From Halogranum rubrum (GTDB lineage: Archaea; Halobacteriota; Halobacteria; Halobacteriales; Haloferacaceae), in contig NZ_FOTC01000005.1 in assembly GCF_900114455.1 (NCBI RefSeq), positions 1 to 64,000 of the forward strand: 64,000 nucleotides of DNA, written 5' to 3'. The notes beneath the pieces were generated by a model that saw nothing but the letters and a program-made list of their open reading frames with translations, searched no databases and was not told the DNA's origin. Each line of letters opens with the position of its first letter. The stretch's first letter is position 1. Of the stretch, positions 7,122 through 14,942 are shown in pieces. The position numbers and the translations under genes were made by a program.

Positions 7122-8186
7122 TCACCGCTGGGAGTCTCGCAGGATGAGTGGGCCGATAGCGAGCGTCCGCTTCGCGACGGTGGCGACGCGGAAGATGTAC
7201 GAGATGAAGATGAAGAAGGGGAGGAGCGTGAGCGTAAACGCTCCTACCGTGACCCACGTGATGTCGTCGACGCCGAGCGTCGTCCCCGGGAACGACCCAT
7301 CTCCGACGAACATGAACATCGCGCCGGCGACGACGAGGGCCGGAACCGCCGCGTAGAGGATGTACTGTGAGAGGTTGACGAGCGCCCACTCGAAGTACAG
7401 CGTCTTGATGTGTTCCCGCGCCGGCCCGAACATCGTCAGCGAGGTCTTCAGGTCGTGGAACGCCTCTTCTTCCTCCCGAGAGAGGCTGTCTCCGAACTCG
7501 TTCACCATCCGGTCGACCTGAAACACCTTCCACGAGTAGTTGTAGTCGAGCGCCGCATAGACCACGTCGAAGGTGCCGAACTGCGACCCGTCGAGTTTCT
7601 CGCGCACCGTCTCGGCGTTCCCGTCCAGACTGTCGACGAACTCCTCGAGTTGCTCCTGTAACTCGTCGGGAGCGGAGTCACTCTCGTGGATGAGTCGGTC
7701 GAGTCTCTCCGCTCGGTCCTGGCTCTCGGCGACGAGCGCCCGGAGGAAGTTCGAGGGGTCCGAGGGAGCGGTCGACCCGAGCATCTCCTCGGTGTACGTT
7801 CGGAAGTCCTCGGCGTTGCTCATCCGTCGCCGTTGGTCGCCGAGCGGACCGTTCTCCTGCGAGAGGACGAGTTGGTTGATACTGACGACGAGCGTCGTCC
7901 CAGTGACGATGACGCTTATCATCGTCGTGAACCCCGTCTCGATGGTGTCGCCGCGCTGGATGCTCAACTGTAACGAGGGGTAGAGGACGACGGAGAAGAC
8001 TATCAGACTCGCGAAGACGAGGACCGACAGGAGCGCGACGAGACCCAGTCGGTTGGCGCTGAGGAGCACCCAGACCTTCAGGCGACTCTCGTCGGCGCGG
8101 GCGCGCATCGTGTTCTCCGTCCCGATAGAGTCGCCTTCACCGTCGTCGTTGTCGTCGTCGTCGCTCCCGCCCTGACGGTCAGTCAC
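7122..8186 (-). CDS. Four-TM haloarchaeal membrane protein, copy A
   Basis: A 354-residue protein of unknown function. An acidic Asp-rich N-terminus precedes TM segments at about 41-68 and 82-105. Then comes a long soluble helical region (about 110-265, probably coiled coil: QDRAERLDRLIHESDS, LQEQLEEFVDSLDG). Two TM segments follow at about 275-298 and 310-336. Signature stretches are VVSINQLVLSQENGPL after TM2 and FISYIFRVATVAKRTL after TM4. Both recur in the protein at 13775-14827, so the window carries two paralogues. It overlaps the upstream DUF4177-like gene by 8 bp, indicating an operon. Confidence 0.75.
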   Translation of the reverse strand: MTDRQGGSDDDDNDDGEGDSIGTENTMRARADESRLKVWVLLSANRLGLVALLSVLVFASLIVFSVVLYPSLQLSIQRGDTIETGFTTMISVIVTGTTLVVSINQLVLSQENGPLGDQRRRMSNAEDFRTYTEEMLGSTAPSDPSNFLRALVAESQDRAERLDRLIHESDSAPDELQEQLEEFVDSLDGNAETVREKLDGSQFGTFDVVYAALDYNYSWKVFQVDRMVNEFGDSLSREEEEAFHDLKTSLTMFGPAREHIKTLYFEWALVNLSQYILYAAVPALVVAGAMFMFVGDGSFPGTTLGVDDITWVTVGAFTLTLLPFFIFISYIFRVATVAKRTLAIGPLILRDSQR

Positions 8187-9913: not shown

Positions 9914-11632
9914 CTACTCGCCGGCCAGCGCGTCCAGTCGGAACTCGAAGGCGGCGACAGGGAGTTCCAAGTCGTGTTCGACGAGCACCTTCGGGTGGAG
10001 TTCGCCGACGACACCCACCTCGTCGCCGTCGACGACGACGCTCGCGACGCGACCCGAGATGAACGACGGATGCTCCGTCGCGGGCGTCTCCAGTTCCACG
10101 TCGAAGTCGCGACAGAGCGCCTGCAGGCGACCCTTCGCGTCCTCGTACGTCGCGTCGTAGCGAGCGAGCACGCCGGCCACGGTGCGGTGTTCGGCGACGT
10201 TCGTGTTCTCAGAGTCGTCGCGTTCGGCCGCGAGGCCGATTTCCGCGAGGTCCTGCGGGTACGCTCGGTGCGTGTTGTTTTCGAGGACCATCATGAGCGA
10301 CGGGAGCGCCCACGAGCGGAGTTGGGTGTAGTCCTCGGAGTACGGTTCCGTGATGTCGATGGGGTCGCCGCCGCCGACTACGTCCGACCCGGCCTCGACG
10401 TTCATCCGCTCGTAGTTCTCCTCGCCCGAAATCATGTGGAAGTTCAGCAGGTCTTCGAAACCGAGTCCGACGAGACTCCGGCGCGCGGCGTCTTCGAGTG
10501 TCGAACGCTCGTGTCGGCCGCCGACGGTACCCACGTCGGGGTATCGCGGCACGAGGTCGTTGAACCCGTAGGCGCGGCCCACGTCGTCGACGAGGTCCAC
10601 GGGGTGCAGCACGTCGACGCGGTACGGCGGAATCGACACCTCGTAGGCCGTCTCCTCGGCCTCGTCGTCGAGTCGGGCATCGAGACCGCTTCGCTCGAAC
10701 AGGTCGATGGTCTCGCGCTCGTCGAGGTCGATGCCGAGCATCGTCTCGATGCGCTCGTGCGTGACCGTCTTGGTCCGCACGTCGAAGTCCGGTTTGACAG
10801 TGGTGCCGTCCGGGTAGTCGACCTCGACCTGCTCGATCGTCGCCCCGCGGGCGTCCAGCGCGTAGCAGATGATGTTGCACATGTGGTCGATGGTCCACTG
10901 GTCGGTGCCCGTGAGTTCGACGAACAGGTCGCGAGAGTCCGTCGAGACTTCCGTTCGGCGGCCGTTGATGACCGGCGGGAACGAGAACAGACCCAGTTCG
11001 TCGTAGATGGCGGGAAGTTTGTCGTAGTCGGCGACGACGTCGGCGTACTTCCGTCCAGTCGGATGCTCCTCCAGCACCTGTCCGGGCGTCAGTTCGCGGT
11101 CGGAGTCGAGTGCGACGAACGTGTCGCCGTCCGGGTCGATGCCCTTGTAAGTGATGGAGTTGCCACCCTCCTCGTTGAGCATCTCGCCTTTCAGCATCGT
11201 CAGGTCGTGGATGCCGATTGCGCCCTTGACGCGCTTGCGACCCATCGTCGCGTGCAGTTTCTCCTGTAACTGGATGATAGAGTCCAGTCCCTTCTCCGAG
11301 AGGTTGGCTCCGCGAATCACCGCGCCGGTGACGTACGGGCGTTCCTCGGGGACGGACTCGTCGACTTCGATGGTCCAGTCGGGGTCGTTCGTCTTCGGGA
11401 CGGCGACACCGCGGTCGTCGCCGTAGTGGTAGCGCAGCGACCGAGCGACGCCTTCGACAGAGAGTCGGTCGAGTCTGTCGGGACCGAACTCCAGTTGCAT
11501 CAGGCCGTCCTCGGTGTCGCCCTCGTACTCGAGGCCGAGACCGAACAGGTCCTGTTTGAGTTGGTCGTCGCTCTTCTCCTCTTTGCCGGTGAGTCGGCGC
11601 AGTTCGTCAGGGTCGACGTCTACGACAGGCAT
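9914..11632 (-). CDS. pheT: Phenylalanyl-tRNA synthetase beta subunit
   Basis: 572 residues, the archaeal/eukaryal-type PheRS beta chain. It lacks the N-terminal OB domain and C-terminal ferredoxin-like domain of bacterial PheT. Visible parts are the N-terminal MPVVDVDPDELRRLTG, the B3/4-type region (VKGAIGIHDL..., TGRKYADVVADYDKLPAIYDE), and the B5 region (DVLHPVDLVDDVGRAYGFNDLVPRYP). A catalytic-like domain (PSLMMVLENNTHRAYPQDLAEIG) ends the protein. It forms an alpha2-beta2 enzyme with PheS. Its ATG overlaps the pheS stop by one base (TGATG), so translation is coupled. Confidence 0.96.
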   Translation of the reverse strand: MPVVDVDPDELRRLTGKEEKSDDQLKQDLFGLGLEYEGDTEDGLMQLEFGPDRLDRLSVEGVARSLRYHYGDDRGVAVPKTNDPDWTIEVDESVPEERPYVTGAVIRGANLSEKGLDSIIQLQEKLHATMGRKRVKGAIGIHDLTMLKGEMLNEEGGNSITYKGIDPDGDTFVALDSDRELTPGQVLEEHPTGRKYADVVADYDKLPAIYDELGLFSFPPVINGRRTEVSTDSRDLFVELTGTDQWTIDHMCNIICYALDARGATIEQVEVDYPDGTTVKPDFDVRTKTVTHERIETMLGIDLDERETIDLFERSGLDARLDDEAEETAYEVSIPPYRVDVLHPVDLVDDVGRAYGFNDLVPRYPDVGTVGGRHERSTLEDAARRSLVGLGFEDLLNFHMISGEENYERMNVEAGSDVVGGGDPIDITEPYSEDYTQLRSWALPSLMMVLENNTHRAYPQDLAEIGLAAERDDSENTNVAEHRTVAGVLARYDATYEDAKGRLQALCRDFDVELETPATEHPSFISGRVASVVVDGDEVGVVGELHPKVLVEHDLELPVAAFEFRLDALAGE

Positions 11633-13140
11633 CAGTGAAGCACCTCGGTTTCCCGCAGCAGTTCGAGGTCACACAACGTCCCGTGGACGTCACGGATGTC
11701 CTCGAAGCCGTACATCAGCATCAACAGGCGTTCGAGCGCGAGACCCCACGCCATCACGTCGCACTCGACGCCAAGCGGTTCGAGCACCTCGGGGCGGAAC
11801 ATCCCCGAGTTGCCGATTTCTATCATCTCGCCCGTCTCCGGATGTCGACCGAACAGTTCGAACGACGGCTCCGTGTAGGGGTTGTAGTGCGGCTTGAACT
11901 GGATGTCCGTGATGCCGAACTGCCGGTAGAACTCCTCGAAGGTACCCATCAGGTCACGCACCGACAGGTCCTCGGCCATCACCCACCCCTCTATCTGGAA
12001 GAACTCCAGTAGGTGCGTCGGGTCGAGCGTGTCGTTGCGGTACACCTTCTCGACCGAGAAGTACCGCTGTGGCGGTTCTAACTCGCCCTGTGCATAGCCT
12101 GAGAGGTAGCGCATCGACAGCGACGTGGTGTGCCCGCGCAGGGCGACCTGTCGCGCGAAGTCTTCGGACCACGGCGAGTGGTAGCCGTCGCCGTCCTCGC
12201 CGACGCCGTTTCGGTGGGCGTCTTCGACTCTGTCGACGAGGTCTTCGGGAACCTCGTGAATCGGCGGGACGTCCAGTGCGAAGCGGTCCCAGTGGGTTCG
12301 CGCCGGGTGGTCCTGCGGCATGAACAGACAGTCGTTGATCCAGAAGTCCGCGTCGGCGTGCGGCCCTTCCATCTCCTTGAACCCCATCCCGACGAGCGTG
12401 TCCTTGACTCGGTCAGCCGTCTGCCGGAGGATGTGCGTCTTGCCGCCCTGCGCCGTCGGCGCGTCGGCCTCGACGTTGTACTCGGTGAATTCTACATCCT
12501 GCCACTCGCCCGTCGTCAGCATCTCGGGCGTCAGGCGGTCGACGGTCTGAGCGGCTTCGACGCCCTCCATCAGTGCCGTCACGCCGTCTTCGGTCAGCGT
12601 CACCGAGCGAACGGTCCGCTCGTCGCGAGCGACGAGGCCTCGACTCTCCAGTTGGTCGAGGACCGCGTCGTCGACACTCCCTGCATCACCGTCGGCGACG
12701 GCGGCGAGTGCGGCGGCCTCCTCGTCTGCGTCGGGGTCAGCGTCCGGGTCGGCGTCGACCTTTCCGCCGTCGATGACGCCGTAGCCCTTGCGTGCGAAGT
12801 TCGAGAGGGCAATCTGTACCTTCGGGCCACCGAGACCCGAGGCACCGATGAGTTGGCCCATCTCGACGGGGTCCTCGTCGGCCCCGGCGTCGAGAGCAGC
12901 GCGGTAGAGACGAACCTCCGGGAGACCGTCTGCGAGGTACTCCTCGCCCTCGTCGGTGAGCGTCGCGCTCGTCTCGACGGTCTCTTCGACGGCGACGAGA
13001 CCGTCGTCTCGGAGGTCGAACGCCGCGCCCGTCACCGTCTCGGGTTTCAGACTAGTTGCCTCCGCCAGTTGGTCGATTGTCTGTGCGTCTGTCGCGCTCG
13101 CGGCTTCTAACACCGCGACTTGTGATTCCGGAAGTCGCAT
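11632..13140 (-). CDS. pheS: Phenylalanyl-tRNA synthetase alpha subunit
   Basis: 502 residues, class II catalytic subunit of PheRS. The N-terminus has tandem winged-helix tRNA-binding domains (residues about 1-100 and 170-200), as in archaeal and eukaryal PheS. An Asp/Ala-rich linker separates them. The catalytic core has motif 2 (YFSVEKVYRNDTLDPTHLLEFFQIEGWV), the Phe pocket (PHYNPYTEPSFELFGRHPETG) and motif 3 (MAWGLALERLLMLMYG). There is no TATA-like box at the usual distance from its ATG. Transcription therefore probably begins about 326 nt upstream at the leader described next. Confidence 0.96.
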   Translation of the reverse strand: MRLPESQVAVLEAASATDAQTIDQLAEATSLKPETVTGAAFDLRDDGLVAVEETVETSATLTDEGEEYLADGLPEVRLYRAALDAGADEDPVEMGQLIGASGLGGPKVQIALSNFARKGYGVIDGGKVDADPDADPDADEEAAALAAVADGDAGSVDDAVLDQLESRGLVARDERTVRSVTLTEDGVTALMEGVEAAQTVDRLTPEMLTTGEWQDVEFTEYNVEADAPTAQGGKTHILRQTADRVKDTLVGMGFKEMEGPHADADFWINDCLFMPQDHPARTHWDRFALDVPPIHEVPEDLVDRVEDAHRNGVGEDGDGYHSPWSEDFARQVALRGHTTSLSMRYLSGYAQGELEPPQRYFSVEKVYRNDTLDPTHLLEFFQIEGWVMAEDLSVRDLMGTFEEFYRQFGITDIQFKPHYNPYTEPSFELFGRHPETGEMIEIGNSGMFRPEVLEPLGVECDVMAWGLALERLLMLMYGFEDIRDVHGTLCDLELLRETEVLH

Positions 13141-13322
13141 GTGGTCGTTGATTCGGATACCGTGTGGTCGTCAGTTAGCAGTTCCGGGACAGTCGTCCGC
13201 GGGTCCGCCGTCAGTCGGCGACTCGTTCGGACTGCCGCGCCGAGTCGAACGGGTTCGCACGTCGGGTCGCTGTGCGGGAAGTGAGTCCAGCACCGCGACG
13301 GCGACGAGGTCCACCGTCCGTC

Positions 13323-13389
13323 CTAAGAACGGTTGTAAGTCGGTCCGGTCTGTCGGCGACTACCGGACCACGGGTACAACCGTCCTTAG
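13323..13389 (-). promoter_or_regulatory. Large RNA hairpin overlapping leader-peptide stop
   Basis: In the pheST-sense RNA, 13389-13375 pairs with 13337-13323 over 15 bp, including one G-U. After a small internal loop, 13369-13362 (GGUCCGGU) pairs with 13349-13342 over 8 bp, closing a 12-nt loop. On the opposite strand the G-U becomes an A-C mismatch, so the structure suits the sense RNA. The leader stop codon TAA (13388-13386) lies within the 5' arm. A ribosome at the stop would cover the whole lower arm. One stalled on the Phe codons about 10-24 nt earlier would leave most of it free. Confidence 0.7.
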
Positions 13390-13466
13390 CAGACGCCGAA
13401 GAAGAACCCGAACCCATCGGTCGTCAGTTCGCGAACTGGCCTCACAACGTCGGGTTCGGACGTCAT
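13386..13466 (-). CDS. Phe-rich leader peptide upstream of pheST
   Basis: A 26-codon frame starts ATG ACG TCC GAA and ends GFGFFFGVC-TAA. Four of its last eight residues are Phe, all TTC. Codon third positions are about 77 percent G/C, as in real genes here. A TATA-like box at the leaderless distance would start the mRNA at this ATG. This layout resembles amino-acid-sensing leader peptides such as PheM ahead of E. coli pheST, but I know of no characterised archaeal equivalent. It could also be a chance frame; comparison with related genomes would decide. Confidence 0.6.
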   Translation of the reverse strand: MTSEPDVVRPVRELTTDGFGFFFGVC

Positions 13467-13521
13467 ACACGAAAGATACCTGTGAGACCTGAAAACGGTT
13501 GCGGACTCGTGAGAGACGGTC

Positions 13522-13794
13522 TCACGCTCGACGCTGGAGTCTCCACCCGGCGACCGCACCGTCGTCGAGACCGGAGACGACGACGAAGAGGAGGGACGCG
13601 ACGAGCGCGGCACCGGCCATCGCGTAGCCAGCGGCGACGGCGTGCGACTCGCCGCGAGAGAGAGACTCTCGGGTCGGAAAAGGAGGGGGGAGGGCCACAG
13701 TCGAAGTTGGCGAGAGCAGACGATAGGCGTTCTGCTCCAGCAGAGAGTGTGTCTGCCAGGTCGGCGGCGCTTGGTTAGTCGAACTTCGGGCCAT
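13522..13794 (-). CDS. Possible small membrane protein
   Basis: A 90-codon frame whose ATG lies 20 nt inside the end of the upstream membrane protein gene. The last 35 residues (AMAGAALVASLLFVVVSGLDDG, then WRLQRRA) look like one transmembrane segment with a basic tail. The first 50 residues are rich in Pro, Ser and Thr and are not convincing, so a shorter protein from an internal start is possible. No family recognised. It could also be a chance frame in the spacer before the pheST leader. Confidence 0.3.
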   Translation of the reverse strand: MARSSTNQAPPTWQTHSLLEQNAYRLLSPTSTVALPPPFPTRESLSRGESHAVAAGYAMAGAALVASLLFVVVSGLDDGAVAGWRLQRRA

Positions 13795-14827
13795 CCTCGG
13801 CGAACAACTCCTCTTCGTTGAGGGTGAACCCGGTCGACTCCAGCGAGTACTTCGAGACGGTGACGATGCGGAGCATGTACGAACTCAAGAGGACGTACGG
13901 CGAGAGCGCGACGACGAACGCGAGGCTGATGTAGAGCAGGCGTGGTTGGATACCGAAGGCCGACAACGTCGGAAAGAGGCCAGCATCGATAGCGAGCAAT
14001 ACGTAGGACGTGAAGACGATGACGGGAAGCGAGAGGACGAGCAGGTCACTCGAGAGGTTACGCAGTTCTCGCTTGAAGTAGAGCGTCGCGTAGTACTCCC
14101 GTCCGGACGCGAAGAACGTGAGAATCTCGGTGAGGTTCTGTAGGAGTCTGGACTCCGTCTCGCTCAGATGCTCTCCGTGTTCGACTTGAATCCGCCGTGT
14201 CGCGTTGATGTCGCGAGCGTAGTCGTACTCGAGACTGGCGAGGAGCAGCGTCGATATCCGCTGGTTCTCCGTCCGGAGGCGAGCCTCTATCTCGGACACC
14301 TCGGCTTCGAGTCGGTCGGCCAGCGACAGCAGTTCGTCGCGCAGCGGTCGGTTCGTGGTCGTCGACGCACTGGTCCGGAGTTTCTCCGTCTCCGCACGGA
14401 TAGCCTGCAGGATGAACCAGAAGAACGCTCGCAGACCCGCCGGACTCACGCCCGACCGTGCGAGTTTCTCTAACTCGATTTGGAACCCGATGGAGTCCTC
14501 GATTTGGGCTTGCTTCACTTGCAGCGGCGCGAACTCCTGAGACAGCGCGGCGATGTTGATAGAGAGGACGACAGAGACGAACAGGATGACGCCACCGAGC
14601 AGCGTGTTGAACAGCGTCTGGACGGCACGCGTCTCTCTGACCAGCGTCTCCATCTCGAACTGCCACGCCGTGCCGACGGCGAGAAGCCAACAGAAGATGA
14701 CCGCCGAGAGAAGCAGTGTGAGACTGCGACGACTCCCGTACAGGAGGACCCACTGCACGGGCCGTCGGACAGCACGGTGTGACCAACTCCGTCGAGACGC
14801 GACGGTTCCCGTCTGGTGACGGCTCAT
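13775..14827 (-). CDS. Four-TM haloarchaeal membrane protein, copy B
   Basis: 350 residues, a paralogue of the protein at 7122-8186. It has the same plan: a basic N-terminus, TM1-TM2 (RSLTLLLSAVIFCWLLAVG, then LFNTLLGGVILFVSVVLSI), and the shared motif VVLSINIAALSQEFAPL. A soluble helical region follows, then TM3-TM4 and SSYMLRIVTVSKYSLESTGF, which matches the other copy's SYIFRVATVAKRTL. An ATG 14 codons further upstream (14869) is possible. I prefer 14827 because an A/T-rich box (GGAAAATCA) sits near -27 and the basic SRHQTG start resembles a normal cytoplasmic end. Function unknown. Confidence 0.72.
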   Translation of the reverse strand: MSRHQTGTVASRRSWSHRAVRRPVQWVLLYGSRRSLTLLLSAVIFCWLLAVGTAWQFEMETLVRETRAVQTLFNTLLGGVILFVSVVLSINIAALSQEFAPLQVKQAQIEDSIGFQIELEKLARSGVSPAGLRAFFWFILQAIRAETEKLRTSASTTTNRPLRDELLSLADRLEAEVSEIEARLRTENQRISTLLLASLEYDYARDINATRRIQVEHGEHLSETESRLLQNLTEILTFFASGREYYATLYFKRELRNLSSDLLVLSLPVIVFTSYVLLAIDAGLFPTLSAFGIQPRLLYISLAFVVALSPYVLLSSYMLRIVTVSKYSLESTGFTLNEEELFAEDGPKFD

Positions 14828-14942
14828 GAAAACGACCTCAGAACAGTACTCATTGATTTTCCTGACCACTGAGACGGCGTTCTACGATATCAGTCCCTCG
14901 GCCAAGCGAACGGCCCAAGAGTGTCGGATTCGGCTACCGTCT

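Follow-up and report, generated by a model that had tools for sequence, protein, structure and literature searches.

The window analysed here, a stretch of 64,000 nucleotides of Halogranum rubrum DNA, carries on its minus strand the two genes of phenylalanine–tRNA ligase: pheS, for subunit alpha (11632–13140; NCBIfam NF003210 and TIGR00468 above cut-off), and pheT, for subunit beta (9914–11632; TIGR00471 above cut-off), the start of pheT overlapping the stop of pheS. Ahead of pheS, on the same strand, lies a short frame of 26 codons (13386–13466) which, as a preliminary description of this DNA had read it, translates to MTSEPDVVRPVRELTTDGFGFFFGVC and ends with a run of Phe codons, TTC TTC TTC, at 13398–13406. 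That description took the frame and a 67-nt hairpin behind it for a leader that senses the supply of Phe and controls pheST. The leader, with its Phe codons and its own promoter, has stood up well and is conserved across Halobacteria, whereas the hairpin has not stood up as the switch. The pheST region lies between two paralogous membrane proteins (7122–8186 and 13775–14869, both on the minus strand; 26% identity, E = 6e-30), of which the one beside the leader, at 13775–14869, is without a match to any NCBIfam model.

Of 148 genomes of the family, 146 yielded pheS, as did 80 named genomes; after the removal of duplicates there were 150 distinct upstream regions. Of these, 118 contain a short frame that opens with ATG and has several Phe codons towards its end. 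The leaders are found in Haloferax, Halogranum, Halogeometricum, Halorubrum, Halobaculum and Halorussus, as well as in Haladaptatus, Natrinema, Natrialba, some Natronomonas and other genera. Among 66 representatives they are mostly 24–29 codons long, with the last Phe usually 1–4 codons from the stop; the distance from leader to pheS is 85–250 nt. Some copies are damaged: the upstream region L141, from a metagenome assembly, has a one-base frameshift in the leader, with the stem P0 described below intact, L030 has lost the start codon and L067 the 5' half. Outside Halobacteria, 19 regions upstream of pheS were examined from other families of the same phylum, and none has the leader.

The leader is preceded by a promoter at a fixed distance. 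Column counts over the 118 sequences place a BRE-like CNNAACG and a TTTT box at -37 to -26 from the ATG; in the window this promoter, with the BRE-like CGCAACCG, occupies 13492–13503 (minus strand), its TTTT at -29 to -26 behind a BRE-like CGCAACC, so that the T-rich box noted earlier in front of the leader ATG is indeed there. Such a fixed spacing is the arrangement of leaderless transcripts, which by the figure given in PMC4983044 make up 72% of the protein-coding transcripts of Haloferax volcanii. The accompanying statement that a TATA element is missing at the start of pheS itself has to be qualified, since a conserved BRE/TATA-like element, CGGAACTGCTAACTG, stands at 13172–13186 (minus strand). 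This element, block C (CGGAACYGYTAAC and variants), lies about 37–56 nt before pheS in nearly all lineages, and it is retained where the leader and the hairpin P1 (see below) are missing, as in Halonotius, Halohasta, part of Natronomonas and some Halorubrum and Halobaculum. Block C is probably a basal, pheS-proximal promoter, and the leader module is an add-on to pheS that has been lost as a unit.

Two structures are conserved in the leader RNA, and both are supported by covariation. The first, the stem P0, joins nucleotides 6–16 of the leader (UCCGAACCC and its neighbours) to the Gly-Phe-Gly codons just ahead of the Phe run; in the window its arms are GTCCGAACCCG at 13451–13461 and TGGGTTCGGGT at 13406–13416, both on the minus strand. 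Compensatory arm pairs among the relatives include CCGGACCC:GGGUCCGG, CUCGAACGCG:CGCGUUCGAG and CCGACCCCG:CGGGGUCGG, with further matched changes in UCGAAUCCCG:CGGGAUUCGA, CCGAAUCCC:GGGAUUCGG and GCCCGAACUCG:CGAGUUCGGGU. In a gapless alignment of 57 sequences that covers the four strands of P0 and P1, P0 is 94.2% paired and shows 48 both-side changes, where shuffles give 15.0. The P0 anchor itself had been picked by pairing; a permutation that chose the best stem anew gave z = 10.7.

The second structure, P1, is a CGGYGGA..GAAACCG hairpin that follows just past the leader stop in relatives. Its flanks covary, with 33 both-side changes in the same 57-sequence alignment against 13.4 in shuffles. 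In the window P1 lies at 13247–13319 (minus strand): its lower stem pairs 13319–13314 (GGACGG) with 13252–13247 (CCGTTC), and the internal loop, TGGA at 13313–13310 opposite GAAC at 13256–13253, corresponds to the YGGA/GAAA loop of the relatives. Taken jointly, P0 and P1 were matched on any of five measures in 0 of 500 shuffles, counts that are not to be read as probabilities because the shuffles ignore relatedness, and sliding the partners destroyed the signal. When every pair of segments was tested, the P1 upper stem (z = 11.3), P0 (9.7) and the P1 lower stem (7.2) came out as the top three; the fourth signal, at z = 5.5, was a variable hairpin ahead of block C, and the test gave no conserved, mutually exclusive competitor of P0 or P1. 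A pairing of the P1 3' strand with a downstream GGUCGG is plausible in Haloferax and unsupported across lineages. The spacing between the two loop strands of P1 clusters near 28, 38 and 60 nt. Elsewhere in the genomes P1-like patterns have many matches without discernible pattern, which is uninformative.

The YGGA/GAAA loop of P1 is nearly invariant across Halobacteria; a kink-turn reading of it, checked by hand, does not fit. An almost unchanging loop within stems that covary is what one would expect of a binding site, and P1 could accordingly be an operator, to which PheRS, another protein or a tRNA would bind to repress its own mRNA, the peptide being secondary. The loop contains GAA, which is the anticodon sequence of tRNA-Phe. 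This likeness, however, is a four-letter resemblance, and an operator would leave the in-frame Phe run, P0 and the distance between the leader stop and P1 all unexplained, so we regard it as unlikely.

In the window species P1 is found 69 nt past the leader stop because the 67-nt hairpin (13323–13389, minus strand) intervenes, and this distance counts against reading the leader as an attenuator. The hairpin folds as the preliminary description had it: it has 15 outer pairs, its 5' arm contains the stop codon, and its folding energy of -40.3 kcal/mol corresponds to z = -6.9 relative to 200 dinucleotide-shuffled sequences. It is correct that no U-tract follows; nor was any U-tract found between the leader stop and pheS. 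The hairpin is missing, however, from both congeners (L004 and L005) and is thus species-specific, the conserved elements being P0 and P1. The comparison of regions upstream of pheS, which had been named as a check, therefore divides the proposal: the frame and its Phe codons are conserved, and compensatory changes do occur, but they lie in P0 and P1 and not in the stem first described, which the congeners lack. Sitting where P1 sits elsewhere, the 67-nt hairpin may replace P1 in the window species, since it itself begins at the stop. Two relatives (L025 and L022) have unrelated hairpins at the same place after the leader stop.

Published transcripts from Haloferax bear on this region. A dRNA-seq study of H. 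volcanii enters in its Table 2 (PMC4983044, row 13) a uORF of 26 amino acids and pI 5.9 in a long 5'-UTR of pheS; that table assigns the upstream start to pheS and gives no second start site. The same length and pI are found for several leaders in other species of Haloferax, and row 13 is very probably the Phe-codon leader. A pheS transcript that starts close to the gene, which had been put forward as one observation that would speak against a leader, is thus not what Table 2 records for H. volcanii. In H. mediterranei a 170-nt RNA, HM56_V, has been reported between pheS and its neighbour, with approximate boundaries (PMC5852579). In ten Haloferax genomes the variable hairpin ahead of block C ends 160–169 nt from the leader start, and together the two lengths fit a leader RNA whose 3' end, made by termination or by processing, lies upstream of pheS. 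The variable hairpin often ends 4–9 nt before block C in relatives and has up to 14 perfect pairs (L130); it is terminator-like in behaviour but has no U-tract, and in the window species it is weak. H. mediterranei has more short RNAs beside genes for amino-acid metabolism or synthetases, namely HM28_V by aroA, HM6_V by ilvA-1 and HM3_V by aspS, and these are perhaps further leaders (PMC5852579, Table 2).

The entries of PMC4983044 list these uORFs as small proteins, without discussion there of Phe codons, RNA structure or attenuation, and PMC5852579 reports the RNA as an sRNA. With these reports and with a promoter of its own, the leader could be taken for an ordinary small-protein gene, or a trans-acting small RNA, that has a function of its own and stands upstream of pheS by chance. 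Yet the module is tied to pheS wherever it is found and disappears as a whole, and its codons are those for the very amino acid that the downstream enzyme handles. Moreover, in the middle of the peptide, differences are equal at all three codon positions, so the sequence there is free. An unrelated small gene is on these grounds quite improbable.

Since the leaders had first been picked partly for their Phe codons, the test of these codons was repeated with a definition blind to Phe, which asked for the promoter and P0 only, in any frame, and which 87 regions satisfy. In 86 of the 87 there are, in frame, at least two Phe among the four codons after the stem; the three codons that directly follow P0 encode Phe in 85, 77 and 77 of the 87. 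The one region that departs from this belongs to a metagenome-assembled genome, where the frame is shifted. (An early count of third-position-only changes in the paired Phe codons was discarded as biased by the way leaders were picked.) TTT, the less common Phe codon, makes up 18% of the leader Phe codons as against 5% in pheS. This enrichment, and the place of a U-rich sequence directly after P0, would suit a terminator in which P0 is the hairpin and UUYUUYUUY is kept as a U-tract and not for its Phe codons. Selection for a U-tract alone fits poorly, though, because TTC still dominates (190 of 233 leader Phe codons); the stretch is in frame in 86 of 87 with a stop within a few codons, and such a terminator would produce an RNA of about 75 nt, whereas the short Haloferax RNA measures 170 nt. 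We consider it very improbable.

Only 6 of 8,034 ATG frames of 18–45 codons, in about 2.06 Mb of this genome, have four Phe in six codons, and of these six the pheS leader is the only one that adds a promoter box, a long-range stem and a place before pheS. A degenerate DNA pattern for GFGFFF occurs once in the whole genome of the window species, and over about 45% of that genome no further leader of the same type was found by promoter, stem and codon criteria. A match of 30 bases on contig C6 appears to be fortuitous. That the Phe-rich frame and the hairpin are themselves without meaning, as the lack of conservation of the 67-nt hairpin might suggest, is refuted by the conservation, the covariation and this uniqueness in the scanned part of the genome, and is hardly credible.

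We therefore favour, with a probability of roughly 0.78, the reading of the leader as a pheST attenuator that senses the supply of Phe-tRNA by the position of the ribosome. RNA polymerase would start at the leader ATG, and a ribosome initiating on the leaderless RNA would open P0. When Phe-tRNA is scarce, the ribosome would stall on the Phe run, covering the 3' arm of P0 and leaving P1 free; when it is plentiful, the ribosome would reach the stop, cover the 5' strand of P1 and release the P0 arm, so that P0 could form, and the RNA would mostly end some 160–170 nt from its start, just ahead of the pheS-proximal promoter. Block C would meanwhile provide basal expression of pheS. The geometry agrees with this scheme. 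The footprint is assumed to extend from the first base of the A-site codon by 15 nt on the upstream and 12 nt on the downstream side. A ribosome stalled at any of the Phe codons would then hide the 3' arm of P0 but not the 5' strand of P1, and one at the leader stop would do the reverse; all four geometric conditions hold in 53 of 61 representatives under this footprint. The earlier argument that stalled and terminating ribosomes occupy opposite positions thus survives, transferred to the conserved stems.

Some observations count against the attenuator reading. Unlike in classical attenuators, there is neither a U-tract nor a conserved pair of mutually exclusive structures; P0 and P1 could both form on RNA free of ribosomes; the probable proximal promoter would allow expression of pheS independently of the leader; and the leader has been lost in several lineages. 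As to the output, premature ending of transcription seems to us slightly better than an even bet, the alternatives being an effect on RNA stability or on the translation of pheS. An ending of transcription could be factor-dependent, through aCPSF1/FttA (PMC8116511). The coupling of transcription and translation reported in H. volcanii (PMC8576121) speaks for the attenuator, as does a Trp-codon leader of related design before a plasmid trpS, described below.

It is worth comparing this arrangement with known systems. Amino-acid sensing by ribosomes that stall on a leader peptide is textbook knowledge in bacteria, where the pheST and pheA attenuators have leader peptides, pheM and pheL, with runs of Phe codons. 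The pheS leader is like them in being a short frame with a Phe run before Phe genes, in which the position of the ribosome would decide the folding of the RNA. It is unlike them in its leaderless archaeal start, in control codons that lie between two stems, and in having no conserved competing structures, no U-tract and a probable second promoter. Of the features of a bacterial-type attenuator it thus has the cognate codon run and, under the assumed footprint, stems placed oppositely for a stalled and a terminating ribosome; it lacks any conserved pair of exclusive terminator and antiterminator structures, and the intrinsic terminator with its U-tract. Rfam covariance models for the T-box riboswitch and amino-acid leaders gave no match in the window region (E <= 5) or in five relatives (E <= 1). 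In mycobacteria, leaderless poly-cysteine uORFs stand just ahead of regulated genes, and these too are short frames whose final stretch repeats the amino acid that is sensed. There, however, the uORF and the gene close behind it are coupled in translation, while the gap between leader and pheS is 85–250 nt, which exceeds the range of translational coupling reported in H. volcanii (PMC12548453). In open-access full text, no ribosome-mediated attenuator was found described in archaea. As far as the sequences tell, the pheS leader is very probably an archaeal variant of leader-peptide attenuation in a domain for which we found none described.

A related arrangement stands before the plasmid trpS of Haloferax and Natronorubrum. 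The leader there has 23 amino acids (e.g., MVSTSHANCWRWHVSREVDSIAV) with the cognate codons Trp-Arg-Trp, and a stem, TCCACTTCCC:GGGAAGTGGA, with one compensatory pair. The regions compared were L214, L215 and L257–L259 (about -166 to -92 from plasmid trpS) as well as L260–L262 and L264. Table 2 of PMC4983044 (row 12) has a uORF of 23 amino acids before a tryptophan–tRNA ligase of H. volcanii (HVO_A0127), which is probably this leader. Like that of pheS, the trpS leader is a short frame that has codons for the cognate amino acid and a stem starting, on its 5' side, at codon 3; its control codons, however, lie in the loop of the stem, while those of pheS come after it. Past the stop of the trpS leader, the sequences examined show no P1 motif CGGYGGA..GAAACCG. 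Several Natrinema-type plasmids retain the stem but have a changed frame, and a Haladaptatus halobius plasmid (L256:2501-2591) has a trpS-type copy without trpS behind it, in which stem and frame have decayed. We would, very tentatively and at odds clearly short of even, suggest that haloarchaea have a form of attenuation of their own for aminoacyl-tRNA synthetases (pheST and plasmid trpS), in which two non-competing stems that flank the control codons, one of them with a conserved binding loop, would read the position of the ribosome on a leaderless RNA, and the output would be a factor-dependent ending of transcription with no intrinsic terminator.

Archaea combine coupled transcription and translation with a eukaryote-like RNA polymerase. 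If the attenuator is confirmed, it would mean that archaea use the bacterial logic of attenuation with different parts. The idea is directly testable because Haloferax is a genetic model, and the system would offer a handle on the interplay of archaeal ribosomes, RNA polymerase and termination factors.
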